Of a stretch of 52,296 bases of DNA, positions 1,903-17,578 are shown in pieces. The stretch covers positions 1 through 52,296 of the forward strand of contig CAJQPL010000045.1 of assembly GCA_905480215.1 (NCBI GenBank), given 5' to 3'. The notes under the pieces are model-generated. The model did not search any database and was not told the origin of the DNA. It saw nothing but the letters and a program-made list of their open reading frames with translations. Each line of letters begins with the position of its first letter. Position 1 is the stretch's first letter. A program made the translations under genes and the position numbers. Source of the stretch: an uncultured Woeseiaceae bacterium. GTDB lineage: Bacteria; Pseudomonadota; Gammaproteobacteria; Steroidobacterales; Woeseiaceae.

Positions 1903-3606
1903 TTACCAGCCGCCGCCACCGCCGCCACCACCACCACCGCCTGATGATCCACCACCGCCACTGCCCGACGATGATCCAGGTGGAGTGACAGATGAACTTA
2001 CAGACGAGTTTAGGCCACTTGAAATAGCACTGGTTGTCGCCGCAAGATTCGACGAATTCCAACTGCCGTCGTACCACGATGGGCTATAGCTGTTGCCATC
2101 AGGGGTTCGCATTGAGGCTAACAATGCTGCAAATTTTTCAGACCATTCCTGATCGACACCTAAGGCCAACGCGAACGGCAAGTACGCTTCAAAAAGCTCA
2201 GGTGTTTTCTCCGGCGGGTTTCGCAAATTCAGATCGTCCTTCTCAGCAACTTCGAGATAGTCCTTGAAACCCAACATTTCGTCGAGCAATACGCGACCCC
2301 GAATAGTCGGCCGCTTCATGATGATGGCGAAGAACACCATGGTTAAATACATCGATACAATCAATGCAATAAGAACCTGACTCGGGCCATCACTTATCTT
2401 TAGTGACACTACAGTAGCGACCAGAACGATAATAATCGCCGGAATATTCAAACCACCGTTGGTGCGAAAATATTTCTTCTTATAGTCGGTTTTCAGCGAT
2501 GCCTTGTGTTTCTCACGTGCCTTGCCCAATACCTCGTGATTGAGTTGCTTTAGCGTTACAACGTCGTCATCGTCTGCAAATAGCGCCTCGTACAGTTCCT
2601 GCTCCCCGGCAGCAAGCGTCTGTCGATTGTCCTCAGGCGCCATTCTCTTCAGCGAGTGAATACTGTCTTTGTGTTTGATCTGCAAATAGCCCTTAACCGC
2701 CAGACTGACAATCCCAGCTGTCATTACTTTGTTGTCGTAGTACATCTGCGATATGTAGCGTAGCGACGCTGGCGAAAAACCCTGCGGCGGTTGGTAACGT
2801 GTAACGATCACCCCTTCCGGCGGGTCTCTGCCCTCTGCACGCCACACCGGAATGTAATAGGCCAGCAACAACAAGAAACCAATGAGCGCGACTAGTAAAT
2901 CGCGATTATCACTCAGCAGCCACTGCAGGCGTTGCCAGTCGCTGGGCTCAGTTACCAGACCTTTCGGCCAGCCGACCACAATGGTCAAGCCGTGCGCAGG
3001 CGGCAAGGACTTGTTGGCGCGAAAGTGAATTTTCCCAGCCTCATCCATACTCGGACTATAGTCCTGCGCTTTGGATCCTCGACGCCCCGTATAGGCCTCT
3101 ATGTGAACAGCATTTCTCGCAACATCGAACTCAAACGTTACGCTAGCACTTGCCTTTTCTATCAGGAAGTCCCAGCGGTTTCCGGTCACATTCCAATACA
3201 GTTCATCGTGTTCGTTAAAGAAGCCGAGCATTCGATTCGCTCGATAACGAAAGGTGTAAGTATGTTCGCCTGGACTCAGCACTTTATCGGCATGACCGAA
3301 GTAGGTACGAATATCACGACGATTTCGCACCGTGTGAAACTGTTCGGGCAAGTCGTCGCGCAGCACAATCAGCGGTTCAACTGTGATCTCATGCTTGTTG
3401 CCAAGATTGTCCTGAAACTCCACGGGAAAGTCGCGATAGATGCCGCGCCTGATCTGCTTTCCTTCCGAACGCACTTTGATGGTCTCTGTAACCTCGATCA
3501 TGCCATCGGCAAAAACACGAACATCGCTGTGGAAGTTCAGGATGCGCTCGTCGGCGCCTGCCAACGAAGAAAATGCTAGCAACAAAAATAAGTAACAGCA
3601 CTTCAT
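1903..3606 (-). CDS. DUF2207 family predicted membrane protein
   Basis: Exported membrane protein of 567 aa. An N-terminal signal sequence (about residues 1-18) leads into a DUF2207 beta-rich domain (FHSDVRVFADGMIEVTETIKV). A transmembrane segment follows near residues 235-255 (LLVALIGFLLLLAYYIPVW), then a cytoplasmic region, and two more membrane spans near residues 390-430. The protein ends in a serine/glycine tail with a run of eleven glycines and a final Trp, a feature shared by many members of this family. The start ATG overlaps the LemA stop codon (ATGA), so the two are translationally coupled. LemA and DUF2207 proteins commonly occur together; their joint biochemical role is unknown. 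Confidence 0.88.
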   Translation of the reverse strand: MKCCYLFLLLAFSSLAGADERILNFHSDVRVFADGMIEVTETIKVRSEGKQIRRGIYRDFPVEFQDNLGNKHEITVEPLIVLRDDLPEQFHTVRNRRDIRTYFGHADKVLSPGEHTYTFRYRANRMLGFFNEHDELYWNVTGNRWDFLIEKASASVTFEFDVARNAVHIEAYTGRRGSKAQDYSPSMDEAGKIHFRANKSLPPAHGLTIVVGWPKGLVTEPSDWQRLQWLLSDNRDLLVALIGFLLLLAYYIPVWRAEGRDPPEGVIVTRYQPPQGFSPASLRYISQMYYDNKVMTAGIVSLAVKGYLQIKHKDSIHSLKRMAPEDNRQTLAAGEQELYEALFADDDDVVTLKQLNHEVLGKAREKHKASLKTDYKKKYFRTNGGLNIPAIIIVLVATVVSLKISDGPSQVLIALIVSMYLTMVFFAIIMKRPTIRGRVLLDEMLGFKDYLEVAEKDDLNLRNPPEKTPELFEAYLPFALALGVDQEWSEKFAALLASMRTPDGNSYSPSWYDGSWNSSNLAATTSAISSGLNSSVSSSVTPPGSSSGSGGGGSSGGGGGGGGGGGW

Positions 3607-4163
3607 TCGACCGAGCCCAGGTCGATCAATGGCACGTTCGCAGCATCGTCCGAGGTTTTCTGAAAGTAAACGCTTCGATCAAAACCGAACCAGGTTGCAA
3701 GCAAATTGCTCGGAACGGTTTCGGTCAGCGTGTTGTAGTCACGCACGGAGCCGTTGTAATAACGCCGCGCAAACTGCAGATAGTCTTCGGTTTCGACCAG
3801 TTCATTTTGCAGATTAAGGAAATTTTCGTTGGCTTTTAGATCCGGATAGCTTTCTGCCAGAACGATAAGACGTCCCAATCCGCTACTAATTTTGGCTTCG
3901 ACCTCACCCCTGGCTTCGACATCGGCAACCTGCATCGCCTCGGCCCGTAACACTGTCACAGCCTCAAGCGTTGCGCGCTCGTAGCTGGCGTATTGGTCTA
4001 CAGCGTCAACCAGCCTTGGGATCAGGTCATAGCGGCGCTGTAACTGGACATCTATATCACTCCAGGCGGTGCTGACTTGGTTGCGTGCGCCGACGAGGCG
4101 ATTGTAGATAATGACGCCAGCAACGAGAATCAGCGCTGCGACGAAAATCACGATCGTGCTCAT
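3603..4163 (-). CDS. lemA: LemA family protein
   Basis: A LemA-family protein of 186 aa. It has one N-terminal membrane span (TIVIFVAALILVAGVII) followed by a long helical domain. The family core NQVSTAWSDIDVQLQRRYDLIPRLV is recognisable, as is the ANENFLNLQNELVETEDYLQFARRYYN segment. The ATG at 4163 is preferred over an in-frame TTG six bases upstream. Its ribosome site GGAG lies nine bases before the ATG, inside the 3' arm of a short hairpin (see 4166-4189). The stop codon overlaps the DUF2207 start by four bases. Confidence 0.92.
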   Translation of the reverse strand: MSTIVIFVAALILVAGVIIYNRLVGARNQVSTAWSDIDVQLQRRYDLIPRLVDAVDQYASYERATLEAVTVLRAEAMQVADVEARGEVEAKISSGLGRLIVLAESYPDLKANENFLNLQNELVETEDYLQFARRYYNGSVRDYNTLTETVPSNLLATWFGFDRSVYFQKTSDDAANVPLIDLGSVE

Positions 4164-4165
4164 TA

Positions 4166-4189
4166 ACAAAGACTCCGTTTAGTGCGGAG
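4166..4189 (-). terminator. hairpin ahead of lemA: terminator or ribosome-site lock
   Basis: On the minus strand CTCCG (4189-4185 side) pairs with CGGAG (4177-4173 side) around a seven-base loop, followed by TCTTTGTT. It lies just past the DUF3570 stop codon and could end the leftward OMP operon. The 3' arm CGGAG is also the apparent ribosome-binding site of lemA, so the fold would also hide that site. The stem is only five base pairs, so either role is tentative. Confidence 0.4.
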
Positions 4190-4236: not shown

Positions 4237-5379
4237 TTAGTACCAGATAGAAAAGTACAGTTGAAATACGTTGGCATCGAGCTTATACAGCGGCTCGCTA
4301 CCCAGCGGCGCCGCCGCTGATAGATCGGCGAAGTCGTCGTAGTCCACATGCAACAAATCGAGTGACGCTGAAATTGTCGCCTTCTTGATGAAACCCCAAT
4401 AATCATTTCCATCGTCATTCAGTAACTCGTAGCTCGCTTTGAGTTTGAAGGTATAGCTCGTGAGCGGACTAAGCTCTTTGTCGCGGCCGCGGAAATTGGT
4501 TTCCTGTGCACGCGCGAAGATATCGCGGTAGAAATCCGCGCCAGTCTGATTGTGGTATCTGAATTTTCCGGTAAATATAAATTCACGCCACGGATGGATA
4601 TAACTCAGAGCCGCAGTATGCCCGTCGATATTCCAGGTATCAGTAAAGAATCGATACTCACCTTCAATTGCCGCCCGGTAGGGCAGGAAGTAGCGGGCTC
4701 GCAGGCCAATCGCATTCGAAGTGCGTGTATTTGGGTATAGCTCAGGCTCGTAACTGTAGCCGAGGGCACTGCCAGCATCGAAATAACGCACAGATCGATA
4801 CGGATTGTTGAGGAAGCCCTCGTCCGTGGCAGTTTCAAAATTCAAAGTCGAAATTAGATTCTTGGTAAGAATCTGTGTAATACCGACGCTGTAAGTTTGT
4901 TTGTCGAGAGTTCGTTCAAAAGTCGGGTCATCTGCGCGTCTCACCAGGTCATCGCCCAAGGCGTAAGCAAGCGTTAGTGTGGTCAAGTCGCCGAACATAT
5001 CCTGACTGACGGAAAAGCTTACTGTCTCAGCATCGTAGTCGGACTCCTCGCTGCTAACGTAGTTGAGGCTCATGGTCGTGTTGCCATGCAGGTAGTCCAT
5101 ACCCAGAGACCATTGTTCACGTTCCTCGGTATAGGGGCTCGCAGTAGTGATGACATCGATGGAAGCCGAACTGACCATATCGATGTAATAGTTGCCTACC
5201 ACTGAAATGCTTTTGCCAACTTTCTTTCGTACTAAAACCGACGGACCATCAATCGTAACCCCACCTCCATCATAGAGATGATAAAGGACATCTGCCCTGT
5301 CCTCCGGTAACACACCTGCACTCGCACTAACGGTCATGGCTAGTAGCAAAGCGAAAACAGATATGCGTCGTAAGATCAT
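4237..5379 (-). CDS. DUF3570 family outer-membrane beta-barrel protein
   Basis: A secreted protein of 380 aa with a cleavable signal (MILRRISVFALLLAMTVSASA). The rest consists of alternating amphipathic strands and ends in an aromatic C-terminus (QLYFSIWY), typical of outer-membrane beta-barrels. The start region VLPEDRADVLYHLYDGGGVTIDGPSVLVRK matches DUF3570 as I remember it. DUF3570 genes normally sit directly after a DUF4266 lipoprotein gene, as here (24-bp gap). This is the last gene of the leftward five-gene operon. The function is unknown; an outer-membrane channel or scaffold for the exported heme protein upstream is inference. Confidence 0.85.
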   Translation of the reverse strand: MILRRISVFALLLAMTVSASAGVLPEDRADVLYHLYDGGGVTIDGPSVLVRKKVGKSISVVGNYYIDMVSSASIDVITTASPYTEEREQWSLGMDYLHGNTTMSLNYVSSEESDYDAETVSFSVSQDMFGDLTTLTLAYALGDDLVRRADDPTFERTLDKQTYSVGITQILTKNLISTLNFETATDEGFLNNPYRSVRYFDAGSALGYSYEPELYPNTRTSNAIGLRARYFLPYRAAIEGEYRFFTDTWNIDGHTAALSYIHPWREFIFTGKFRYHNQTGADFYRDIFARAQETNFRGRDKELSPLTSYTFKLKASYELLNDDGNDYWGFIKKATISASLDLLHVDYDDFADLSAAAPLGSEPLYKLDANVFQLYFSIWY

Positions 5380-5403
5380 TGGCTGGTCTTCGATTCCTAA
5401 GTA

Positions 5404-5643
5404 CTAGTTACAGCCGCAGCCACCACCAGCAGCGCCCTCGCCGCCTCGTGCACCCTCGCGAGACTCATAGACGTGCTGCATGTAAGAGCTGGAGATAGCA
5501 TCGGAATCCAGCGCCATGATGGGGTCGGCAAGCCGGTCGCGCTCGTAGGGTTTGACCCAGGGCTCAATCGGACCGCAGCCGGACAAGCCAGCGATGACCA
5601 GTAAGGACAGTAGAATTCGTCCAATTGGCAAGCGTTTCATCAT
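5404..5643 (-). CDS. DUF4266 small lipoprotein with Cys-Gly-Cys-Asn C-terminus
   Basis: A small lipoprotein of 79 aa from the ATG at 5643; the ATG at 5640 or an upstream ATG at 5661 are alternatives. The lipobox LSGC ends a hydrophobic signal. The mature part reads GPIEPWVKPYERDRLADPIM, the DUF4266 hallmark. The tail is rich in glycine (REGARGGEGAAGGGCGCN) and carries two cysteines one residue apart at the very end. A pair of thiols at the end of a flexible glycine tail suggests metal binding, disulfide chemistry or attachment to a partner, but no function is established. It is tightly linked to the DUF3570 gene. Confidence 0.85.
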   Translation of the reverse strand: MMKRLPIGRILLSLLVIAGLSGCGPIEPWVKPYERDRLADPIMALDSDAISSSYMQHVYESREGARGGEGAAGGGCGCN

Positions 5644-5707
5644 AATTGTTCCGTTTTGCATGTTGTTACTTTAGCGCCGCAAGCTGTTTCGAACCGTGAC
5701 CTCTGCC

Positions 5708-6388
5708 TCAGAAGAACACCGTGAAACCGAGGTGGCTTTCAAGATTGTGAGCTGTCTTCTCTTCGCCAATAATGTCGATATCAAATAGGTGATCGCGAAA
5801 ATCGAGGTGCAAAGCGATCGCATCAGTCAACAGGAAGCGGTAACCCGCACCAACGTTGACGGTAAATCGATCGTCACCGGCAAAGCGGGTCGAGCCCAGT
5901 CCAGCGATCAAGTACAAATTGGTGTTGTAAGCACGCCCTTCACCAAGGAATACTTCGCCGGGCAGGATGTTGTAGCCCAGACTCAAGTTGTAATACGTCA
6001 ATGTGCGTTCGTCGTCGGTAATTAAACGCGCGCCGCCCGACAAGGTTTCGAAGCTTGTCAGGCCGCCTTCCGACTGACCAACAGCTCCCTCGATAAAGAA
6101 GCCTTCTGTCATGTGGTATGCAAGCCGCAAACCGTAGGACATATCTGAGCCGAAGTCCTCAATGCTCATAATTCCCACGTAGCCACCAATTTCGAAGTCC
6201 TCGCGATCAATCGCGGGCTCCTTAATTTCCCGGCGTTTAACTTGCGGATTAACAACCTGCCCAGGCGGTTCCGCCGTCGGAGGCGGTGCCTCTTCACGGC
6301 CGAAGCCAAACAGATTTTTTGTCGCAGCGCAGCCTGAAAGGCTAACTATTGCAACAATTAGAAAAAGAACGCGAAGCCGACTTTCCAT
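5708..6388 (-). CDS. outer-membrane beta-barrel domain lipoprotein
   Basis: A protein of 226 aa with a lipoprotein signal (lipobox LSGC near residue 20) and a proline-rich linker (APPPTAEPPGQ). An eight-strand-type beta-barrel domain follows from about residue 65 to the C-terminal Phe-Phe (LGFTVFF). Strands such as YVGIMSIEDFG, FFIEGAVGQSE and LYLIAGLGSTRF resemble the outer-membrane beta-barrel family that often occurs in adjacent pairs. Its start codon lies inside the end of the upstream SH3/barrel gene in another frame (31-base overlap), which implies translational coupling. Confidence 0.8.
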   Translation of the reverse strand: MESRLRVLFLIVAIVSLSGCAATKNLFGFGREEAPPPTAEPPGQVVNPQVKRREIKEPAIDREDFEIGGYVGIMSIEDFGSDMSYGLRLAYHMTEGFFIEGAVGQSEGGLTSFETLSGGARLITDDERTLTYYNLSLGYNILPGEVFLGEGRAYNTNLYLIAGLGSTRFAGDDRFTVNVGAGYRFLLTDAIALHLDFRDHLFDIDIIGEEKTAHNLESHLGFTVFF

Positions 6389-7152
6389 TCTTCTACTTCC
6401 TCATTTTCGTCACGGCTAGTGAAAACCACGTAGCTCTTATACTCGGCACGCAACAAGAAACGTCGCGTGGCATATACTCGGAAGCCGGCACCAACATGTC
6501 CAATCTGATCGGTGCGGTCCTCGCCTTGAATAATCGTGCTCTTGGGTTCAGTACGAATAGCACCTGCGCCCAATGTAAAAAACGGTGACACGCGCCAGTC
6601 GGGGAAGGCTTCGTGTACGATATTGACACTGCCCATCCAACCATTGGAGAAGTTGCCCAGAATTTGCGAGCCCCAAAGTTCGACAGAGATATTCGGATTA
6701 AGCGAATAACTGCCGTAAAGAGAAATGATGTTCGCACCACCAAAGTCGCCAGCAAGGACACCAGTCTCCCACTTGGCATTGGTGAAATCTTCCAATCCCA
6801 GCTCGGCGAAACGGACAGTCGATCCATCGGACTGCAGCGTCTGTTCCATTTGCGAACCGGCGACCCATCCCTCGACGTTTTTGTCGGTACGAACTTTGTA
6901 CCAATCCGTCTTTTGCGAAATAACATCGACAGCGTCGCCGCGGTCGACGACATGAAAAATGGGGTAGCCCCGACCCGGGCCAGTGTGCATTTCAAGATAC
7001 GGGTCAGCAACCGTTACGCTTCGATAATCGTCAGCTGCGCAGGTCGGTGCTACAAAAAATATTTGCAGTGCGACAGCGACTAGGCATCCAAGCCAAATAT
7101 TATTAGTTGGCTGGGGCGTCGAAGGGATTGTTGTAATATTGGGCTCCGCCAT
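6358..7152 (-). CDS. SH3 domain plus outer-membrane beta-barrel protein
   Basis: A protein of 264 aa from the ATG at 7152. It has a signal-like hydrophobic stretch (IWLGCLVAVALQIFFVAPTCA, about residues 19-39). A bacterial SH3 domain follows (LEMHTGPGRGYPIFHVVDRGDAVDVI through VEGWV, about 45-105). The C-terminal half is a small beta-barrel ending in Phe-Phe-Phe. The barrel is related in pattern to that of the next gene. The start overlaps the end of the HzsA-like gene by 50 bases. An upstream in-frame ATG would extend the overlap to 134 bases and place the signal too far from the N-terminus. Bacterial SH3 domains often bind cell-wall peptides, which would fit an envelope tether. Confidence 0.8.
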   Translation of the reverse strand: MAEPNITTIPSTPQPTNNIWLGCLVAVALQIFFVAPTCAADDYRSVTVADPYLEMHTGPGRGYPIFHVVDRGDAVDVISQKTDWYKVRTDKNVEGWVAGSQMEQTLQSDGSTVRFAELGLEDFTNAKWETGVLAGDFGGANIISLYGSYSLNPNISVELWGSQILGNFSNGWMGSVNIVHEAFPDWRVSPFFTLGAGAIRTEPKSTIIQGEDRTDQIGHVGAGFRVYATRRFLLRAEYKSYVVFTSRDENEEVEEWKVGFAFFF

Positions 7153-9886
7153 CCAACCATTCGGCGATAAGTCGCTGCTCGGCTTTGGACAAAATATTGA
7201 AGTGAATGAGATCGTTTGGATCGTTAAAAGGGTCAAAAAAAACGCTCGAGGCCCTTGCCCCTCTATTACTCGCTGGTGAAGCTATCGGAACTGGTACATC
7301 TATCGGATTGCCATCCGCATCAAGGCCAGGAACGGTAAAGTCTACCAACGCACCATTCTCTACAACCTGAAGGTTATCAGTAACTAACAACTCACGGTAG
7401 GCGTGAAAGTGGTCCATCTCATCAGGTGACAAACCATCTTGCAGCTCTAACTGACCGGCTGGTTCGCGAACGGCATTGTTCGCCGGGTCGACAGGTGTAT
7501 GGCAATTCAGGCAGTTATTATTGACCTGCAGACCGTTCGCATCGAGAAGCGGTACCTCTTGCGAATTCGGGTCGTTGTCATCATCAAATGTGACGCCACG
7601 AGGAGCATTCCACAGCGGATGGATGATCGTTTCGTAGTTGATAATACTGCGGCAATTCCACTGCCAGTCGGACTGACATGCCAGTGTCGTTGGCGAGGGT
7701 GTTGTCAAATCCGTATAGCGGTAAGAGATGTCCGGGTTGATCTGACTGCCGTTGACGTCGAGCGGATTCGCACTCCAAACATCGCGGTAAATAACATTTA
7801 GTGATGGTTCGATTGACGAACAGCCATCGTTGGCACAGGTGATTCGCGCTCGCACTTCCGCCATGGTCTCGCCAACATCGCCAACAAACCATTGTGGATC
7901 GGTATTCGGAAATGCCACACCGGCTATGGGAGCACCGGCATAGGCACTTTCGAACGAGTCGATTCGACCATGTGACAGGCCGCTGTTTGCGTCATGACAG
8001 CCGTTGCACTTGAGTTCCTGTCCGTCGGGCACTGCAATCCAGTTTTGATGTCGCTGCGTAATCCGCATGCCATTTTCATCGAGCACGCTGATCATAAGTG
8101 CTGCATTAGCCGGTACTTTGGTAATCACTGAACCATCCGGTTCAATCATCGCGTAGCCAACAATCTCTTTCATTCCAAACTCAGTCGAAACACCAAACGC
8201 AGTATTGTCGATATCGAGTAAGTCTTCGTCCGGCAGCGAAACAGCTTTTTCAATGCGTAGAAACCGAGCCAGTCGGTCGGCCGCCAGTGTTTGCAAAGGA
8301 TCTGCCAGTACCGCCGCATCTATGCCCGGAAACATAGCACCATCAAAATCATAGACGTTGCGAATATTGAGGATAGCTTCGCCATTGTCAGACAAAGTGG
8401 TGTCGAGTGTAGAATCGTTGAGGCCATCGAGAATAACAGGTGGTGTCGAACGCGGGTCACCGGATACGACCTCTGTAAACATAAACCCTTCTTCACCGGC
8501 AACGATCGGCAATTGCGTTTCGTCCCGCGGATCGTAAATCCAGATGCCATATAGCGGCGGCGCAACAGAGAAGTCGCCCTCAACCGGGGTGAGCGGATTG
8601 TCGGGGTCGTTGTCTACCAAGGCTTTGGCAAGATTCTCGTCAGTACACGGCACGATCTGCTCGTCGCTGGTACTGGGGTCGCCGTCGTCAGGCAAGATCT
8701 CGATAAGCCGACACTGACTCCAACTAACCAGCAGTCGATTGGTATTATCCTGAATTGGAAATGCCGAGAAATAACGACCACCTGGAGAGGGTACGCCCGG
8801 TTCTGTCAGGACTTCATTAACGGTCGCATCTTCTTGCGCCGGACCATTGAGCACGCCGACGTTATCCTTGGTTGGCTGGGTATTCTCTACATACTGTGGC
8901 GTGTCGATGAAAATCAGTTCGCCACCACCTTCGGTGTTGTTAAAGGGTCTGGCGACAATCAACAGGCGTCCATCCTGAACCTGGCGCGGCTGCATGAATT
9001 GGATGGTCTCGCCGTTGGAGCCGGTATCGTGACTTTGCTGTCCATACAGCAGTTCGATATTCGAACCGTCCGGATTCATACGATACAGATTGACGGCATC
9101 ATTGTTCTCGTTGTGATCCCAGCGACTAAATACTACTTGACCGTTATCAGTAACCGACGGGTCAAGGTCATGACTCTGATTAAAGGTAACTTGCGTGATG
9201 CTACTGCCATCGTCATTCATGACGTGGATATTGAATGCAAACTCGTTCTCATCCTCATCCATTGCAGGAAACGCGCCTTTGCCCTCGTCCAGCAACAACG
9301 CCTGAGATTGCGTCTGCCGCGTCGAGGAAAACACAATGCGCCCGTCGGGCAGGTATTTCGGCATGATGTCGTGACCAATCTCCGCCGTCAGGTCCGATGG
9401 CATGACACGCACAAGCTCTTCCGTCTCAAACGTGTACTGCCAGATATTCCAGGTTGCAACCTGATCGTCAACAGCAACGCCCATCTCAAATGGGACGCGC
9501 ATGGAAAACAGCACGCGGCTGCCGTCAAAATCCATCTCAACATCGCGGATAGCGGCGAGACCCTGTGATACCGCTGCGGTGATATTGACCGGCTCTGCGC
9601 CTACCGCTGCGCGATCACGGATGAAGAGCTCGGCGCCGAAATCAAACGTGATCTGCTGTCGCAGGTCCGTCTGCAAAAAATCGCCATTATCATCGCTTGG
9701 AATCGGTGACTTAATGTAAGCGATCGGAAAATCAATAATGACGGGGTCCTGACTTTGTCCTGTCCCTATTTGTACACCATCGCCCTTGCTACACGCAGCA
9801 AGCACGAAGCTGGCCATCATCAACGCAACCATCCTGGTCGCTGAACCCGAAAATCCGTCTAATTTTAATTGAGATAGCCTAATCAT
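7103..9886 (-). CDS. di-heme beta-propeller lipoprotein, HzsA-like
   Basis: A large exported protein of 927 aa. The ATG at 9886 is chosen because AAGGTGAG lies six bases before it; ATGs at 9904 and 9925 have nothing comparable. A lipoprotein signal ends in VLAAC. The N-terminal two thirds carry TolB/PD40-like propeller repeats (MPKYLPDGRIVFSSTRQ, DPSVTDNGQVVFSRWDHN, NLYRMNPDGSNIELLYG). The C-terminal part has two c-type heme sites: CNGCH at residues 627-631 and CLNCH at 792-796. This order of propeller then heme domain recalls the alpha subunit of hydrazine synthase, and similar proteins are annotated as HzsA-related. No hydrazine synthase beta or gamma partner is nearby, so hydrazine chemistry is not implied. 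It heads the leftward operon. Confidence 0.8.
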   Translation of the reverse strand: MIRLSQLKLDGFSGSATRMVALMMASFVLAACSKGDGVQIGTGQSQDPVIIDFPIAYIKSPIPSDDNGDFLQTDLRQQITFDFGAELFIRDRAAVGAEPVNITAAVSQGLAAIRDVEMDFDGSRVLFSMRVPFEMGVAVDDQVATWNIWQYTFETEELVRVMPSDLTAEIGHDIMPKYLPDGRIVFSSTRQTQSQALLLDEGKGAFPAMDEDENEFAFNIHVMNDDGSSITQVTFNQSHDLDPSVTDNGQVVFSRWDHNENNDAVNLYRMNPDGSNIELLYGQQSHDTGSNGETIQFMQPRQVQDGRLLIVARPFNNTEGGGELIFIDTPQYVENTQPTKDNVGVLNGPAQEDATVNEVLTEPGVPSPGGRYFSAFPIQDNTNRLLVSWSQCRLIEILPDDGDPSTSDEQIVPCTDENLAKALVDNDPDNPLTPVEGDFSVAPPLYGIWIYDPRDETQLPIVAGEEGFMFTEVVSGDPRSTPPVILDGLNDSTLDTTLSDNGEAILNIRNVYDFDGAMFPGIDAAVLADPLQTLAADRLARFLRIEKAVSLPDEDLLDIDNTAFGVSTEFGMKEIVGYAMIEPDGSVITKVPANAALMISVLDENGMRITQRHQNWIAVPDGQELKCNGCHDANSGLSHGRIDSFESAYAGAPIAGVAFPNTDPQWFVGDVGETMAEVRARITCANDGCSSIEPSLNVIYRDVWSANPLDVNGSQINPDISYRYTDLTTPSPTTLACQSDWQWNCRSIINYETIIHPLWNAPRGVTFDDDNDPNSQEVPLLDANGLQVNNNCLNCHTPVDPANNAVREPAGQLELQDGLSPDEMDHFHAYRELLVTDNLQVVENGALVDFTVPGLDADGNPIDVPVPIASPASNRGARASSVFFDPFNDPNDLIHFNILSKAEQRLIAEWLDGGAQYYNNPFDAPAN

Positions 9887-10300
9887 AGGTCTCACCTTCG
9901 TCATCGTGGCAGGGTACGACGCCATACAGCCAACATACCGTTAACGAGATCACAAACCACGGATTATGTCTAACTGCAGCTACCCTATATTGTCTCGTCG
10001 CATAGAATTATAAGAGAGGCCTCAAACCCGATGTAATGTCTCAAAAGCACGACATTAGCGATCGTGAGCTCTCTTCAATGCGCTGTATTAGCCTATGCGT
10101 AGCCCGATTTCATTGCCTTCCATCGCAATAAAATAAAATCAAAAAATGTAGTTTTCTTCCCACATTGAGACGCGGTAATGCCTGTGAGGAAGCTTGCAAT
10201 TATTGCGACTTGTCGTATCGGGGGCGTCCCGTCTCCCTTCAGAGACAGTAGGCGAGCCTATTAAAATCAACGACTTACTCTCTCTGGCACCCAGAGTTGT

Positions 10301-10320
10301 GCGATTGCGCCGACAATCGC
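10301..10320. promoter_or_regulatory. 20-bp inverted repeat, candidate activator site
   Basis: GCGATTG (10301-10307) and CAATCGC (10314-10320) are perfect inverted arms around six bases. The repeat lies about 100 bp upstream of the sigma-54 promoter, a usual distance for an enhancer-binding activator. Half-site-like TCGCAAT or ATTGCGA strings recur near 10124, 10202 and 10480. Confidence 0.4.
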
Positions 10321-10415
10321 TTGACATATAACGACACTAATCCGGCAAGGCGTAAAGAACGTAAGTCATTGTTTTATATTTATTTTCAACTCATTTTCGC
10401 CGCTTATTCCAAGAC

Positions 10416-10431
10416 TGGCACAGCACTTGCT
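10416..10431 (+). promoter_or_regulatory. sigma-54 (-24/-12) promoter
   Basis: TGGCAC-AGCAC-TTGCT matches the RpoN consensus TGGCAC-N5-TTGCW, with the essential GG and GC at the right spacing, and is preceded by C. Transcription would start near 10442, giving a leader of about 140 bases before the ATG at 10581. A sigma-54 promoter requires an ATP-driven activator bound upstream; no activator gene is in this window. Confidence 0.72.
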
Positions 10432-10580
10432 TTATCAGTTACGAACCTCGACGCAATGACAATACAAGCAGGAAATCGCAATTGCCGAGGACTGTGAGTG
10501 CATTCACGGAGATTCACACTGATGTTTGGCAGCCTTAGACAGCCAGGCTCAACGCATTACCGCAGACGAGCAGAAACGAT

Positions 10581-11840
10581 ATGAATAACTGGACGTGGAA
10601 ACAACACATGGAAGACGTTTTTGAAAATTTGTCTCGCATCGCTATAGCAGCGTTGCTATGTACGATTCTTGCACTGCCTGCGAGTGCCGGTGATAGCGAA
10701 CAGGCGAAACGTATCTTTGATCGTATCGCTGGTGTACCGCCAAATGCCGCGGAAACAACCGATCTGGCAAGCGCTATGACGGGTACGAACTCAGCCTGTT
10801 CTGGCTACCAGCTGCACGGTGCTACCGATGCCAGCGGCGTCGCGGATCTGCGGGCCGAATGCGCTGCCTACATCGCTATGGACAACAAGAACTTCTATAA
10901 CGTCACGTTAAAGAATTTCGCGGCTCCGTGGACGAATCGTGATCAATCAGTATTCGTAACGTTGAACGACTACATCGCTACAGTCATTGGCATGGTGCGT
11001 GATGACCAGGCCTTCAACGAATTGTTATCGCGTGACATCACCTACGTGGGACGTGCCGGAGTAGCAACATCACCGCCTGCGGCTAATAACAATGATCACT
11101 ACGCTGAACTTGAGGCGAACAATGTCAATCTTCGTGACGAACTCGAGTTTGCCACGCAATCATCAATTAACGGCATACCGTCAACGGCAACTGCGGGAGT
11201 TATGACGTCGCGAGCCGCTTCTGAAGCCTTTTTCGTCGCCGGCACGAATCGCGCGATGTTCCGATTCACACTGCTCAATCATCTTTGCAACGATATGGAG
11301 CAGATGCATGACGTAAGTTTGACACCGGACAAGATTCGTCAGGATGTCAGTCGCAGTCCGGGCGGCGACAGCCGCCTGTTCTTGAATAATTGCATTGGCT
11401 GCCATGCTGGTATGGATCCGATGGCGCAGGCATTTGCGTATTACGACTACGATGAAGTAACGACGCAGTCGCTGCAGTACACGCCTAATGTGGTGCAGCC
11501 TAAGTACTACAACAACGATCTGAATTTTCCACCCGGTTTTCGCACACCGGATGACGAATGGAACAACTACTGGCGCACCGGCCAGAATGCTTATCTGGGT
11601 TTTGATAATTCGCTGCCAGGCTCTGGTCAGGGTGCCAAGTCTCTGGGCGCTGAACTCGGCAACAGCCACGCATTTGCCGCCTGCCAGGTTAAGAAAGTAT
11701 TCCGCGCCGTTTGCTTGCGTGCACCTGAAGACGCGACAGACCGGGCAAAGGTCGATGAAATCATTACTACGTTCCGCGGAACGGGCTACCGGATGAAGCA
11801 AGTCTTTGCCGATTCGGCCGTTCATTGCATGGGCGAGTAG
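10581..11840 (+). CDS. exported mono-heme cytochrome with PSCyt3-like site
   Basis: A protein of 419 aa. Its signal peptide (IAIAALLCTILALPASAG) is preceded by a longish N-terminus; the ATG at 10608 is an alternative start. One c-type heme motif, CIGCH, is at residues 271-275. The context NNCIGCHAGMDPMAQAFAYYDYD resembles the heme site of planctomycete-type cytochrome domain DUF1588 (CxxCH..xDPxGFxxExFD). The preceding NRAMFRFTLLNHLCNDMEQMHD resembles the DUF1592-like region before it. Additional cysteines (ACQVKKVFRAVC and one near the C-terminus) may form disulfides. It is the first gene of the rightward operon, six bases ahead of the next gene. The function is probably periplasmic electron transfer; the partner is unknown. 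Confidence 0.72.
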   Translation: MNNWTWKQHMEDVFENLSRIAIAALLCTILALPASAGDSEQAKRIFDRIAGVPPNAAETTDLASAMTGTNSACSGYQLHGATDASGVADLRAECAAYIAMDNKNFYNVTLKNFAAPWTNRDQSVFVTLNDYIATVIGMVRDDQAFNELLSRDITYVGRAGVATSPPAANNNDHYAELEANNVNLRDELEFATQSSINGIPSTATAGVMTSRAASEAFFVAGTNRAMFRFTLLNHLCNDMEQMHDVSLTPDKIRQDVSRSPGGDSRLFLNNCIGCHAGMDPMAQAFAYYDYDEVTTQSLQYTPNVVQPKYYNNDLNFPPGFRTPDDEWNNYWRTGQNAYLGFDNSLPGSGQGAKSLGAELGNSHAFAACQVKKVFRAVCLRAPEDATDRAKVDEIITTFRGTGYRMKQVFADSAVHCMGE

Positions 11841-11846
11841 GGAGAC

Positions 11847-14462
11847 ATGATAATGACTAATGCAAACGGAATTGCTACTCAGGCTCGACTGCTCGGTTTT
11901 CTACGTACGGCGGCGCTCACTATATTTGCAACTGCGTTTCTAGCAGCCTGTGGCGGCGGTGCAGCAACAACCGAGAATCAAGCATCGTTGGTCCCGGCAA
12001 ACAACAACAACTCTAAGTATGCAGGACCCGCTGCAGACGACGCTGATGTTCTGAAGTTTCAGCAAGAATTTTGGTCAAAGGCAAAAACGACAAACCGTTG
12101 TGGCAATTGTCACAATGAGACTGTTGGTCAGATGCCCATGTTTGTAAGAAATGATGACGTAAACCTCGCCTATGAGGCGGCGCTGACCAAAATAGATCGC
12201 AATCAGCCTGCACAGTCAGAAATCGTGAGCAAGGTAAGCGGACTTCCGCTCGGTCACAACTGCTGGGTAGAAGACCCCGGTGTTTGCGGGTCAATCATGA
12301 CGACCTGGGTCGAAAACTGGGTTGGCGATACCGCGGATGGCAGACGTCAGATTACACTCACTGCGCCAGCATCGCTAAACCCTGCTGACAGCAAAAACTT
12401 CCCGGACACTTCAGCCGCATTTGAGCAACTCGTTTACACACCGATATTGCAACGCTACTGCTCGGGCTGTCATAGCTCGGACTCCGCGACAGCGCAACAG
12501 CCCTACTTTGCTGACGTCGATGTCAACGTTGCGTACGAAGCTGCAAAATCGAAAATCAGCCTGGACACACCGGGAGACTCGCGCTTTGTAATCAAAGTTA
12601 GCCCGAACCCTGCGATCTCGGGTGAATCACATAACTGCTGGAACAATGACTGCCCGACAGCTGAGACCGAAATGCTGGATGCGATTACAGCATTTGCAAC
12701 TGGAATCACCGCGACAGTGGTCGACCCGGCGCTGATCACCAGTCGAGCAATACGCTTAATTGATGGCACCCTCGCATCTGGCGGCAACCGCTATGAAGAC
12801 TCGCAGATCGCCCTTTGGGAATTCCAGACGGGTAACGGCCTTAAGGCTTTCGACACCAGCGGTGTTGATCCGGCCATCGATCTGAATTTCTCCGGTGACG
12901 TCAGCTGGTTTGGCGGCTGGGGCATTACGATCGGTAACGATGCCGCTCAGGGGCCCGGTAAAGCGCAAGCATCAACGACGGCCAGTAAGAAACTGCATGA
13001 TGTACTGCAGGAATCAGGTGAGTTTTCGATTGAGGCCTGGATAGTACCCGCCAACGTTACGCAGGAAATGTCACGCATCGTCAGTTACTCGGCGGGAGCC
13101 ACGACGCGAAACTTTACTCTGCAACAAACGCTGTACGACTACAATTTCCTGTTGCGCACCAACGAGACCAGTCTTAATGGTGACCCTTCACTTTCAACAC
13201 CGGCGGACGACGAAGTTTTGCAGGCGACACTGCAACACGTCGTGGCCAACTATGACCCGATTAACGGCCGCAGCATTTACGTCAATGGCGCATTGGTCAC
13301 TAACGCCGATCCAGTACCGGGTGGCACGTTGATCGATTGGCAAGACACCTTTGCGGTCGTACTCGGCAACGAGGCATCAGGCGATGGCATCTGGGAAGGC
13401 ACTTTCAGGCTCGCAGCTATTCACCGCCGCGCGTTAACAGAGGAACAGATCACACAAAACTTTGACGCTGGTGTTGGTGAACGCTTCTACATGCTGTTTG
13501 ATATTTCGGCTCGCATTGGTGCACCGGTCGATACCTCGTTCGTACTGTTTGAGGCGCAACAATTCGACACCTACGCCTACCTGTTCGACAAGCCGCACTT
13601 CATTACGCTCGACGGCTCCACGCCCGAAGGCATTTCAATGCGGGGTTTGCATCTCGCAATGAATGGCCAGGAAGTCGAGAAGTCACAGTCCTACGCCAAC
13701 ATGGATCAGACACTAAGTGCTGCACTGTTCCAGGAGCTGGGACAGCCCTTATCCGCTCTCGGTGCCGTTATCCCGGTTGAGAAAGGCCCGGCGGAGGACC
13801 AGTTCTTCCTAACCTTCGATGATCTCGACGGCGTAATTTACAACCGTCAAGACGCACCGACGCTGATCATAACGCCTACTGATCTAACACCAGCATCGCA
13901 AGTCGGTATTCGCACCTTCGATGAGATCGACGCGTCGTATTCATCAATTCTCGAACTAGATCGATTGATCGTGTACAGCTCCGGCGGCGTTAGCGCCGCA
14001 CATGTTGACGAGACCTTCCAGGAACTTCGTCAATCATTGCCCGCAGTCGAGGAAGTGACCACCTTCCTGTCTTCTCATCAAGTGGCAATTGCACAGCTTG
14101 CGATTCAATACTGCGATGCTGCGATCGGCAGCAACGCAAATCCGAATCCAAATGCCGAGGATGTCGTTTGGACTGCTTTCGATTTTGATCAGCCTGCGGC
14201 AACGGCGTTTAGTGTTGCAAACCGCAACAATTTCGTCGATCCGCTGATCGCACGAGCAGTCGGGCAAACATCAAGCGGTACGCAATTGAGTACGCAACCG
14301 ACGTATACAAGTGTTCACGACGAGCTCGCCGCCTTCCAGGCCGCTGGCAATCGTCCGAACAACCTTATTGACAGACTGCTCGCAGGTCCTAGTGACACGC
14401 GCGCGATTGCCAAGGGTGTTTGTGCCTCCGTTCTCGGAAGCGCGGCTACTCTGGTTCAGTAA
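11847..14462 (+). CDS. di-heme LamG-domain lipoprotein
   Basis: A lipoprotein of 871 aa (signal ending FLAAC, followed by GGGAA). Two tandem heme modules come first: CGNCH at residues 85-89 and CSGCH at 205-209. Each is followed by a D-VN-AYEAA-KI segment and an HNCW motif with a nearby second cysteine. From about residue 330 to 540 there is a LamG/concanavalin-like domain (FSIEAWIVPANVTQEMSRIVSYS, GRSIYVNGALV, FRLAAIHRRALTEEQI). The C-terminal third is unassigned. GGAGAC before the ATG serves as ribosome site; a second ATG lies two codons on. LamG domains bind sugars or proteins, so a surface-docked electron carrier is possible (inference). Confidence 0.78.
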   Translation: MIMTNANGIATQARLLGFLRTAALTIFATAFLAACGGGAATTENQASLVPANNNNSKYAGPAADDADVLKFQQEFWSKAKTTNRCGNCHNETVGQMPMFVRNDDVNLAYEAALTKIDRNQPAQSEIVSKVSGLPLGHNCWVEDPGVCGSIMTTWVENWVGDTADGRRQITLTAPASLNPADSKNFPDTSAAFEQLVYTPILQRYCSGCHSSDSATAQQPYFADVDVNVAYEAAKSKISLDTPGDSRFVIKVSPNPAISGESHNCWNNDCPTAETEMLDAITAFATGITATVVDPALITSRAIRLIDGTLASGGNRYEDSQIALWEFQTGNGLKAFDTSGVDPAIDLNFSGDVSWFGGWGITIGNDAAQGPGKAQASTTASKKLHDVLQESGEFSIEAWIVPANVTQEMSRIVSYSAGATTRNFTLQQTLYDYNFLLRTNETSLNGDPSLSTPADDEVLQATLQHVVANYDPINGRSIYVNGALVTNADPVPGGTLIDWQDTFAVVLGNEASGDGIWEGTFRLAAIHRRALTEEQITQNFDAGVGERFYMLFDISARIGAPVDTSFVLFEAQQFDTYAYLFDKPHFITLDGSTPEGISMRGLHLAMNGQEVEKSQSYANMDQTLSAALFQELGQPLSALGAVIPVEKGPAEDQFFLTFDDLDGVIYNRQDAPTLIITPTDLTPASQVGIRTFDEIDASYSSILELDRLIVYSSGGVSAAHVDETFQELRQSLPAVEEVTTFLSSHQVAIAQLAIQYCDAAIGSNANPNPNAEDVVWTAFDFDQPAATAFSVANRNNFVDPLIARAVGQTSSGTQLSTQPTYTSVHDELAAFQAAGNRPNNLIDRLLAGPSDTRAIAKGVCASVLGSAATLVQ

Positions 14463-14487
14463 AGACAGGACATAAAGGATTATCGAG

Positions 14488-16119
14488 ATGAGTAAGAAAC
14501 GAAATGCACGGCACTGGGATGCGCCGCAGCTTCATGGTGATCATCCGCGGCCTGTCACGCGACGTCAGTTTGTATCGCAAGGCTTCATGTCAGGTGCCGC
14601 GTATACGCTCGGCGCTGGTGCGCTGGGAATATTCTCCGCACCACGCAACGCGATGGCTTTATCGGGCGATCTGGCGAGCCAGCTGGCCACGCCGTGCAAT
14701 ATTACCGACGGTGCAGGCAAAATTCCCTTCATCTGCTTTGACCTCGCGGGTGGTGCCAATATCGCTGGTTCCAACGCATTGATCGGTCAGCAAGGTGGAC
14801 AAAGTGACTTCTTAAGCACATCCGGCTACGAGAAAATGGGTTTGCCGGGCGACATGGTTCCCGGACTACAAGATGCCAGTGGCGCCGACTTCGCAAACTT
14901 CGATCTTGGACTGGGCTTTCACCTCGACAGCGCTTTTCGCCGCGGCATCATGACCAGCCTGACACCGGGACGTGAAGCCAATATCAATGGCGCTGTGATT
15001 CCGGCCCGCTCCGACAACGACACGGGTAACAATCCGCATAACCCGATGTATGGCATTGCCACGGCCGGTGCGAAGGGCTCGATTCTGACCCTCGCCGGAT
15101 CCGAAAATACGGATTCAGGCGGAAACTCCATGTTACCGGCGATGCTGTTTGATCCTGAGTTGCGTCCAACCAAGGTCGATCGTCCCAGCGACGTAGTGAA
15201 CCTGGTTGATACAGGCGAACTAGTGGGGATTCTTTCCGAAAATGACGCGACCGCCGTAATGGAATCCATCTATCGAATTAGCGACCAAAAAATGGGCGCG
15301 GTTAATACACAAATCTCCACGGACGCTGCTATTAAGCAAGCAGTCCGATGCGGTTACCTGAAGGCAGCCGACATCGCCGAGCGCTTCGGCGCGACGCCGA
15401 TCGATCCGACGGTCGATCCCGAAATCGTCGCTGATGATGGCACCGGCATCTTTACGACTGCCGAGTTTATGGCCAATGACCGTAACGGTTCCGAGTTTCG
15501 CAAGACAGCATCGGTCATGAAGCTGGTCATGAATGGATTTGCCGGCGCAGGCTGTGTCGAGATGGGTGGTTACGACTACCACGGCGGTGCTCGAGCGGAA
15601 GGTGAGGTTAAGGACGAACGCGCAGGACGTTGCATGGGGGCCGTACTTGAGTATGCGGCACGGCTCAACAAGCCGGTCATGATGTACGTCTTCAGTGACG
15701 GATCCCTGTCCTCAAACGGTGCGATTGATAATTCAACAGCGGGTCGCGGCAAAGGCGAATGGGACAGTGACAATTCGTCAACAGCAGCGTCGTTCTTTCT
15801 CGTTTACAACCCGACGCGGCGACCGACTATTATCGGCGGTACACCGGAAATCCAGGCGGTACACCAGCAAATCGGCGCGATGGATGCAGGCGGCTCGGTG
15901 ATGCGCGCAGGATCGCCGGTCGCTAACAACGTCAACCTGCTCGTCAACGCGGTCATATTGAACTACATGGCATTGCATGGCGAACAAGCTAACTTCGGAT
16001 CCCTGTATCAAAATCCGGACGGCAGTAATTGGAACCACGGCCTCGGCAACGCGGCGCTTCAGGACAGTCTGACTGCGTTCGAACCGATCGTGAATGGCAT
16101 CATTTCGAACCCGATTTGA
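14488..16119 (+). CDS. Tat-exported DUF1501-like protein
   Basis: A protein of 543 aa with a twin-arginine signal (VTRRQFVSQGF, Arg-Arg at 25-26, then a hydrophobic stretch ending at AMA). The body resembles DUF1501 proteins, which have an alkaline-phosphatase/sulfatase-like fold. The family string normally written GGWDTH appears as GGYDYH at residues 360-365. FICFDLAGGANIAGSN near the start corresponds to the usual FVxVxLxGGxDxxN motif. DUF1501 genes are usually paired with cytochrome- or DUF1800-type genes, as here. Tat export suggests folding, possibly with metal, before export. It is the third and last gene of the operon and is closed by a strong terminator. Confidence 0.78.
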   Translation: MSKKRNARHWDAPQLHGDHPRPVTRRQFVSQGFMSGAAYTLGAGALGIFSAPRNAMALSGDLASQLATPCNITDGAGKIPFICFDLAGGANIAGSNALIGQQGGQSDFLSTSGYEKMGLPGDMVPGLQDASGADFANFDLGLGFHLDSAFRRGIMTSLTPGREANINGAVIPARSDNDTGNNPHNPMYGIATAGAKGSILTLAGSENTDSGGNSMLPAMLFDPELRPTKVDRPSDVVNLVDTGELVGILSENDATAVMESIYRISDQKMGAVNTQISTDAAIKQAVRCGYLKAADIAERFGATPIDPTVDPEIVADDGTGIFTTAEFMANDRNGSEFRKTASVMKLVMNGFAGAGCVEMGGYDYHGGARAEGEVKDERAGRCMGAVLEYAARLNKPVMMYVFSDGSLSSNGAIDNSTAGRGKGEWDSDNSSTAASFFLVYNPTRRPTIIGGTPEIQAVHQQIGAMDAGGSVMRAGSPVANNVNLLVNAVILNYMALHGEQANFGSLYQNPDGSNWNHGLGNAALQDSLTAFEPIVNGIISNPI

Positions 16120-16210: not shown

Positions 16211-17578
16211 ATGACTGATCTATCCACCCTCCTCGCCTGCCCACGCTGCGATAAGACACCGCTCGAAACCACTGACGATGCAATGCATTGCAACGCATGC
16301 AAAGTCGACTTCCCGCTGATCGAGGGGATGCCGTGGATGTTCGCGGAACCAGAGGCCACGCTTGGCGAATGGCGCGGACGCCTGCAGTTTTCACTGCAGC
16401 AACTCAGTCACGAGATCGCAAGTCTCGATAAGGAACTTGAATCCAAACAAATGCGCGCTTTGTCGCGGCGCCGCATCGAACGCTATCGGAAAGCCGTAGA
16501 AATGCACCGGCGGTCGCTGCAAAAACTGTTGCGCCCGATCGAGATTCAATCCCTGCAGGGCAATTACGAAAGCTATCTTGCATTGCGCACCCGGCTGCCC
16601 ACAGATCAGGGATTGAATACGTATTACCCGAATATTCATCGCGACTGGGCCTGGGGCGAGGAAGAAAACGCGGCATCGCTTAAGCAAATACGGGCGGTAC
16701 TGCACGACCACGTTGAGCTCGGCAATGTCCTGGTGCTGGGCGCTGGTGCCGGGCGTCTCGCCTACGATATCCACACCGAGCTCAACTGTAGCTCGACAAC
16801 CGCAATGGATTTCAATCCACTTCTGATGCTCGTGGCGAAATCCGTAACCTCCGGTGCGGCTTTGAGTATGTATGAGTTTCCGATCGCGCCGTTATCCCTT
16901 GAAGACGATGCGGTGAAGAGAAAACTCGCCGCGCCTCGCGTTGCCGGTGAGGGATTCCACCTGCTACTTGGCGATGCCTTGCGCGCACCATTTGCGGAAC
17001 AGACCTTCGACACCGTCGTGACGCCCTGGCTCATCGATATCATCAATGAAGACCTGCCAATTTTTGCCAGCCGCATCAACAAGCTGTTAAAAAAAGACGG
17101 CCGCTGGATCAACTTCGGTTCCCTGGCATTTGCCAACCCGGAACGCGCACGTCGTTACAGTCCCGAAGAAACCAAAGCCATCGTTGCTGAAAGCGGTTTC
17201 TCCGATCCCTATGTGTCGCAGGCAACGATCCCCTATATGAGTTCACCTGCCAGTCGGCACGGGCGGCAGGAGCGAGTATTTACTTTTTCAAGCTACAAGG
17301 AGCGCGAGGTGGACAAGCCGCATCGGCACGTCGCCTTGCCGGACTGGATTGTTACCGGGAAAGAACCGGTACCGCTGAGCCCGTCGTTTCGCCAACAAGC
17401 CATGACGACGCAGATCTACGCCTTCATCATGTCTCTGATTGACGGTAAACGATCCATCAAGGAAATGGCTATTATTCTTGAAAATCAGAAGCTTATGACT
17501 CAGGAAGAAGCGCAGGCGGCAATCCGTTCATTCATGACGAAGATGTACGACGACTCGCAGAAGCAAGCCTCTTTCTGA
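16211..17578 (+). CDS. zinc-ribbon class I SAM methyltransferase
   Basis: A protein of 455 aa with three parts. Residues 1-45 form a Trm112-like zinc ribbon (CPRC at 10-13, CNAC at 27-30). The centre is a Rossmann methyltransferase with motif I VLVLGAGAGRLAYDIH, an acidic DFNPLL strand, GDALRAPF, and DTVVTPWLIDII. The pattern recalls the carnosine N-methyltransferase (N2227) family. The last ~70 residues (QIYAFIMSLIDGKRSIKEMAIIL) look like a small winged-helix or PqqD-like domain. The substrate is unknown. The gene ends directly against the stop codon of the convergent esterase gene. Confidence 0.78.
   Translation: MTDLSTLLACPRCDKTPLETTDDAMHCNACKVDFPLIEGMPWMFAEPEATLGEWRGRLQFSLQQLSHEIASLDKELESKQMRALSRRRIERYRKAVEMHRRSLQKLLRPIEIQSLQGNYESYLALRTRLPTDQGLNTYYPNIHRDWAWGEEENAASLKQIRAVLHDHVELGNVLVLGAGAGRLAYDIHTELNCSSTTAMDFNPLLMLVAKSVTSGAALSMYEFPIAPLSLEDDAVKRKLAAPRVAGEGFHLLLGDALRAPFAEQTFDTVVTPWLIDIINEDLPIFASRINKLLKKDGRWINFGSLAFANPERARRYSPEETKAIVAESGFSDPYVSQATIPYMSSPASRHGRQERVFTFSSYKEREVDKPHRHVALPDWIVTGKEPVPLSPSFRQQAMTTQIYAFIMSLIDGKRSIKEMAIILENQKLMTQEEAQAAIRSFMTKMYDDSQKQASF

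Follow-up and report, generated by a model that had tools for sequence, protein, structure and literature searches.

An exported heme-protein locus of an uncultured Woeseiaceae bacterium, probably the outer-membrane module of a motor-linked envelope machine

We examined a stretch of 52,296 nucleotides (the window; contig C45, GenBank CAJQPL010000045.1 of assembly GCA_905480215.1, from a genome that is 65% complete) of an uncultured Woeseiaceae bacterium, in which eight genes lie in two head-to-head operons, the left one on the minus strand and the right one on the plus strand. All eight open reading frames (ORFs) of a preliminary description of this DNA were found in that arrangement. The eight genes probably make up one module, that of the outer membrane and cell surface, within a larger conserved envelope machine that has a proton-driven motor. 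The genes and features of the locus are as follows.

4237..5379, minus strand: DUF3570 outer-membrane protein, likely ApbE substrate (Pfam PF12094, E 4e-36)
5404..5661, minus strand: DUF4266 lipoprotein with the C-terminal end GGGCGCN, CGCN at 5418-5407 (PF14086, E 3e-24)
5708..6388, minus strand: small outer-membrane beta-barrel lipoprotein, TIGR04565 (OMP_myx_plus; NCBIfam, 166 bits, cut-off 60; OMP_b-brl E 2e-8)
6358..7236, minus strand: SH3-barrel protein, an SH3 domain plus a small beta-barrel (SH3_3 E 4e-11; OMP_b-brl below cut-off)
7103..9925, minus strand: HzsA-like lipoprotein with propeller, HZS_alpha middle domain and C-terminal domain (HZS_alpha E 1e-14); hemes CNGCH at 8008-7994 and CLNCH at 7513-7499
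9926..10580, no strand: shared divergent promoter region (head-to-head layout retained across loci)
10581..11840, plus strand: PSD2/PSCyt3-like monoheme exported protein, CIGCH at 11391-11405 (PSD2 E 3e-4)
11847..14462, plus strand: diheme LamG lipoprotein, CGNCH at 12099-12113 and CSGCH at 12459-12473 (Laminin_G_3 E 1e-18)
14488..16119, plus strand: DUF1501-like protein with twin-arginine signal and, in a predicted model, an alkaline-phosphatase-superfamily fold

These Pfam matches bear out the DUF3570 and DUF4266 proteins and, one of them below cut-off, the two beta-barrels named in the preliminary description. The SH3-barrel gene probably starts at the ATG at 7152, and its product scores 35 bits against TIGR04565, under the cut-off of 60. 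Lipoboxes (HzsA-like, LamG, DUF4266 and small-barrel proteins), the twin-arginine signal and the other export signals were assigned by eye and not by a signal-peptide program. A sequence search of the barrel lipoprotein against the PDB gave no match.

Five CxxCH motifs are spread over three architectures (two in the HzsA-like, one in the PSD2-like and two in the LamG protein), with exactly the letters reported earlier, and their conservation shows that they are not chance occurrences. Conservation was counted in deduplicated alignments from which a DUF3570 paralogue (L085) and two weak unrelated loci (L168, L169) had been removed. Both heme columns are occupied in 63/63 HzsA-like rows, the heme column of the PSD2-like protein in 54/54 rows and those of LamG in 52/52, L154 with its many undetermined bases being excluded. 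By plain pattern, two CxxCH are found in 53 of the 63 HzsA-like rows, three in nine and one in a single row (L146). A sub-clade with three heme motifs comprises L073, L161 and L163-L167, and L073, read in reverse, has a further small exported protein between the HzsA-like and SH3-barrel genes. Beside its CxxCH, the PSD2-like protein has invariant Cys236, Cys368, Cys378, Cys416 and His173. In LamG the hemes, His137/His262 and Cys139/147/264/269 are invariant, each CxxCH being followed by an invariant H-x-C...C (HNCW...C in the window version), which may represent a distal His ligand together with a disulfide.

The last protein of the right operon has no Pfam match, and the DUF1501 model, which we take to be PF07394, matched 0/28 members of its family at E 1. 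Because no Pfam match exists, the name DUF1501-like rests on a presumed motif resemblance and on the predicted fold. Against the PDB the family profile gave one chance match only (E 0.89), and Foldseek found nothing better than E 2.5e-3 for the predicted model; VIA-align gave a clearer result than Foldseek, namely the alkaline-phosphatase-superfamily fold. Some records of the relatives P0166, P0177, P0222 and P0230 carry the name 'general secretion pathway protein GspF', which is apparently wrong. The PSCyt/PSD and DUF1501 pairs of Planctomycetes are among the nearest known systems, resembled here in PSD2 and PSCyt3 traces, LamG and an alkaline-phosphatase-superfamily partner. They differ in that the PSD2, PSCyt3 and DUF1501 matches here are below Pfam cut-offs or absent, and in that the present genes are gammaproteobacterial and linked to a motor system. 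Of the Planctomycete kinship proposed earlier there remains a faint PSD2-like trace (20.9 bits, cut-off 25.8), while the DUF1501-like protein fails the Pfam model; a plain Planctomycete PSCyt/DUF1501 system was rejected because the matches lie below cut-off.

The two operons are conserved together. Among 60 relatives, the window's own genome included, the HzsA-like gene was found in 46 and the DUF1501-like and LamG genes in 43 each, all 43 lying within the 46. There were 40 same-order loci: in the 27 showing both operons the eight genes keep one order and orientation (27/27; last gene off the contig in three), ten are cut by contig ends, and three, from families f9 and f11, have only a left operon, which has diverged. 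Among named genomes, 58 loci extend 8.5 kb or more upstream of the DUF1501-like gene, and all 58 carry PSD2, LamG, a divergent HzsA and the SH3-barrel; they come from the best 80 of 565 confirmed stretches, of which the other 22 have less than 8.5 kb upstream and stand outside the count, and several belong to genomes already among the same-order loci. Woeseiaceae are among the named close matches.

At class level, 31 loci were obtained from 30 of 35 matching genomes (G000, G207, G117, G231 and a 3.3-kb contig of G124 were left out). They comprise 18 with all eight genes, divergent in 17 of them, eight with the left operon only, two that are cut, the locus of G089 (L160) and the two weak unrelated loci. 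In the class sample of 231 genomes, from which the window genome is excluded, 32 carry the HzsA-like gene, 31 the DUF1501-like gene and 28 both (Fisher p 2e-28); the HzsA set of this count excludes the weak matches of G116 and G154 (E ~1e-5 to 1e-6), G154 being kept in the set for the core protein TPR625 described below. A phylum sample of 299 genomes, whose share of other classes is unstated, gave nine matches, the window genome and eight of the same class. Rare co-occurrence of the operons and poor conservation of the heme motifs had been named beforehand as findings that would speak against one redox system; instead the operons co-occur and the motifs are conserved. The two operons are almost certainly one system, as had been proposed, and this system is a redox-bearing one of the envelope.

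The machine extends beyond the eight genes. By synteny it also includes ApbE, TlpA, p180, three tetratricopeptide repeat (TPR) proteins, a GltG/TonB-like transducer and, for the motor, one TolQ/ExbB-like channel protein with a pair of TolR/ExbD-like proteins. At a second locus of the window genus, ApbE and TlpA are followed by p180, TPR625, TPR941, a TPR lipoprotein, p133, ExbB, ExbD and ExbD; a transducer of ~310 residues comes next after this core in the one genus locus checked and in three other families. The core is contiguous and co-directional with the HzsA-side genes, in one run, in G050, G040, G057, G044 and G059. Of the class-level loci, 28 had a usable HzsA; 22 of these include core genes (p180, TPR625 or TPR941) in the fetched stretch, and in several the core genes come after the right operon. 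Moreover, Microbulbifer agarilyticus DP4N21-6 has all 18 sought genes in one 21.6-kb locus, where DUF3570 and a transducer-like ORF extend past the ends. TPR625 was found in 46/46 HzsA-positive relatives and in 30 of the 32 HzsA-positive class genomes (p 1e-21), G180 being scored negative although a partial TPR625 adjoins its operon. Three genomes of the window genus (G001, G004, G010), two of which are only 1.5 Mb, have no HzsA, DUF1501-like or TPR625 genes. A paralogous core cluster is seen at L106, L107 and L108, the last from the window genus, with TPR proteins of ~33-40% identity and no HzsA or DUF3570 in the fetched stretch.

Judged from protein models, the motor appears to resemble that behind gliding in Myxococcus. 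A TolQ-like and two TolR-like proteins occur in conserved order (at L086, MotA_ExbB E 2e-29, ExbD E 2e-16 and 4e-15); all four transducers scanned match the NCBIfam AgmX/PglI C-terminal domain NF033768 at 61-67 bits (cut-off 40), the full GltG model NF033760 being matched below cut-off, and the three exported TPR proteins fit GltC, GltD and GltE in size and order. For Gammaproteobacteria, the account of the core in PMC3169522 (Luciano 2011) gives GltC, GltD, GltE, GltG, AglRQS and one extra gene, names Marinobacter, Teredinibacter and Saccharophagus as carriers, leaves the function open and places GltA/GltB just in Myxococcales and Bdellovibrionales. The composition of the cluster seems to fit this orphan Agl-Glt core complex. 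The motor proteins and the GltG/AgmX-type transducer, and probably the three exported TPR proteins, are shared with the Agl-Glt/Nfs machine as that account presents it, and the two small outer-membrane barrels may recall GltA/GltB by size. The construct names in PMC4488436 give 256 residues for GltA, 275 for GltB and 673 for GltC, similar to the 226 and ~264-292 residues of the barrels and the 625 of the TPR protein here. The differences are that gene order ties the core here to ApbE, TlpA, DUF4266, DUF3570, HzsA-like and LamG/PSD2/DUF1501-like proteins, and that gliding is known for the Myxococcus machine whereas the present system is known from genes alone. Compared with TolB of Tol-Pal, the HzsA-like protein has additional heme domains; the propeller that they have in common may be just a common fold. 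In the literature within reach, subscription journals being mostly outside it, we found nothing tying DUF3570, DUF4266 or HzsA-like genes to the Glt core. That the system is a motor-linked Glt-type machine is, in our assessment, highly probable.

The same gene runs contain thiol and flavin proteins. In several outgroups ApbE, a thioredoxin-like protein and DUF4266 are contiguous with DUF3570; in the window genus they are divided between two loci. Families other than that of the window have a TlpA-type thioredoxin between the barrel lipoprotein and DUF4266, and in some ApbE follows DUF3570. Both Cys of the C-terminal CxC of DUF4266 are present in 54/54 deduplicated rows. The window DUF3570 carries the motifs D67MVSSAS73 (5181-5161) and D75VITTAS81 (5157-5137). 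Motif 1, [DE]xx[ST]xA[ST], is found in 62/63 deduplicated rows, and the acceptor Ser/Thr is retained in 62/63 and 63/63 rows of the two motifs; the canonical [ST]GA[ST] occurs in either motif in just 9/63, the window having SSAS and TTAS. A flavin on window-type DUF3570 is plausible because, in the relevant part of the review PMC12052999, a change of Gly to Ala in the flavin motif leaves ~50% flavinylation. According to the main text of PMC8238504 (Meheust 2021), DUF3570 is an ApbE substrate, with flavinylation demonstrated for Chlorobium luteolum, DUF3570/ApbE genes cluster with thioredoxin-like and DUF4266 genes, and the role of DUF3570-based electron transfer is uncertain. The same four families share the same neighbourhood here; the differences are the flavin motif, mostly non-canonical here, and the motor genes, since that main text has no mention of TPR, ExbB or ExbD. 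The part of PMC11334425 on this subject does not name DUF3570. A third locus in G014 (L085:6370-9221), separate from the eight-gene system, has ApbE, the DUF3570 paralogue and a thioredoxin-like protein.

Several observations weigh against a single motor-linked flavin and heme machine. The right operon of L155 is not divergent, and in G089 (L160) it lies beside a truncated HzsA-like gene with no left operon or core at the locus, TPR625 not being found in that genome. In the window genus ApbE, TlpA and the core are at the second locus and not beside the window genes, 6 of the 28 class-level loci have no core gene in the fetched stretch, and in four relatives (G038, G045, G046, G051) as well as in 21 genomes of the class sample core TPR genes occur without HzsA, some of them in paralogous clusters. 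The Glt link has one domain model above cut-off (NF033768); the GltE model is matched at 26-40 bits against a cut-off of 225, the assignment of GltC and GltD uses just their TPR content, their size and their place in the gene order, and kinship to Myxococcus was judged through NCBIfam models and not by direct sequence comparison. Finally, the canonical flavin-motif Gly is missing at both places in 54/63 DUF3570 rows.

In the mechanism that we propose, proton flow through the TolQR-like motor would drive the machine, and the force relayed over the periplasm by the GltG-like and TPR proteins would reach both small barrels and, in the HzsA-like lipoprotein, the TolB-like propeller, and would set the outer-membrane assembly in motion or gate it. 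At the same time, electrons would pass from periplasmic thiols (TlpA) to the CxC of the DUF4266 lipoprotein, to flavin mononucleotide attached to DUF3570 by ApbE, to the HzsA-like hemes and, where these exist, to the LamG and PSD2-like hemes. The lectin-like LamG domain would hold a substrate bound at the surface, probably one containing carbohydrate, for the hemes to act on; the DUF1501-like protein, with its predicted phosphatase/sulfatase fold, is a candidate periplasmic partner. Which way the electrons run, what the substrate is and how force would be coupled to redox are guesses. Such a thiol-flavin-heme chain working on a surface substrate is put forward with somewhat less than even confidence. 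More tentative still is the idea of an envelope machine of a new class, whose proton-driven Agl/Tol-type motor mechanically works the thiol-flavin-heme complex, force and electron transfer jointly acting on the substrate. If true, this force-plus-redox machine would give the orphan Glt core complex of Gammaproteobacteria the function that it has lacked so far. Three open matters, the gammaproteobacterial Glt core (2011), DUF3570 electron transfer (2021) and the HzsA relatives outside anammox, are here brought together in one system of 18-19 genes; roughly one in seven of the Gammaproteobacteria sampled carry its HzsA-like gene (32/231). Cultured carriers are named, one with the full sought set in a single locus, and each question is therefore testable by deletion.

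Alternatively, a Glt/Nfs-like motor could move or pack a coat of polysaccharide or lipoprotein, the redox parts just maturing the machine through disulfide repair and heme ligation. The Agl-Glt/Nfs machine moves surface polysaccharide in Myxococcus, as far as PMC3858216 describes it, the LamG fold is lectin-like, both TlpA and DUF4266 count as thiol proteins, and the PSD2-like and LamG proteins have invariant extra Cys. However, thiol maturation has no obvious need of an ApbE-linked barrel and five extra hemes conserved across the class, and we regard this account as rather unlikely.

A plain extracellular electron conduit, in which DUF3570 and the hemes pass electrons over the outer membrane to a mineral, flavin or oxygen and the motor genes are unrelated neighbours, also seems unlikely. 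The five conserved hemes and the flavin and thiol sites speak for it, and surface redox is plausible in sediment Woeseiaceae because MtrCAB-type genes are reported there in the pertinent part of PMC12175321. However, several lineages have the motor genes interleaved with the TPR and redox genes in contiguous runs, and these genes co-occur; there are just five hemes, and both Pfam OMP_b-brl barrels are small. A large porin-cytochrome conduit was rejected; each of the eight proteins has at most two CxxCH and no MtrCAB-type decaheme cytochrome is among them. Furthermore, carriers named among the best 80 of the 565 stretches include cultured Microbulbifer, Aliiglaciecola, Porticoccus and Aliikangiella, which are aerobic heterotrophs. 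The preliminary description, which proposed an oxidase, reductase or electron conduit, missed TlpA, ApbE, the TolQR-type motor, the TPR proteins and the GltG-like transducer; its label covers only the outer-membrane part, and a plain conduit leaves a proton-driven motor unexplained.

Nitrogen chemistry like that of hydrazine synthase (HZS) at the HzsA-like heme is very improbable. The HzsA-like protein matches the HZS alpha subunit (5C2V) over the whole-length fold with two c hemes, and H908, the equivalent of the distal His772, is present in 63/63 rows. It differs in having a lipobox in its signal and no equivalent of Tyr591: in all 63 rows Tyr is absent there and from the eight residues that follow the His of the first heme motif, which is why hydrazine chemistry was rejected. 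No HZS beta or gamma subunit is among the family matches of the operon genes, the 65%-complete genome itself not having been searched for them, and the earlier view that the locus does not encode hydrazine synthase stands. The HzsA homologues treated in the relevant part of PMC12758564 are without Tyr591 and Cys303, and relatives outside anammox are there without confirmed function.

That two unrelated operons merely share a promoter region is extremely improbable and was rejected in view of the conserved synteny and co-occurrence: the left operon stands alone in families f9 and f11 and at eight loci of the class-level set, and G123 and G239 have their DUF1501-like gene in another part of the genome, but HzsA is present in 28/31 DUF1501-like-positive class genomes and in all 43 such relatives, and core or ApbE genes follow the right operon in several genomes.

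Upstream of the right operon, an exact sigma-54 -24/-12 consensus, TGGCACAGCACTTGCT, lies at 10416..10431 on the plus strand. The same exact consensus is found in 24 of 25 same-genus loci, with one mismatch in L058, while the flanks have diverged; outside the genus the site has at least two mismatches in 26/26 loci of other families examined. By eye, a palindrome-like stretch, GGACTGTGA(A/G)TGCATTCACGG, is seen before the PSD2-like start (~10489-10509) in several genus loci.

In most genus loci a LemA-like gene and a larger membrane protein (window 1903-4169; L081:1643-4189) flank the left operon, and the ApbE/core locus is also flanked by a LemA-like gene. A methyltransferase (16211-17578), weakly Trm112-like at the N-terminus and PqqD-like at the C-terminus, is encoded after the DUF1501-like gene in most loci of the genus that reach that far, but not in L054 and L062. 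Elsewhere in the window lie a molybdopterin-binding oxidoreductase (40423-41382) and a DsbD with a thioredoxin domain (44520-46766), which could be a feeder of TlpA.

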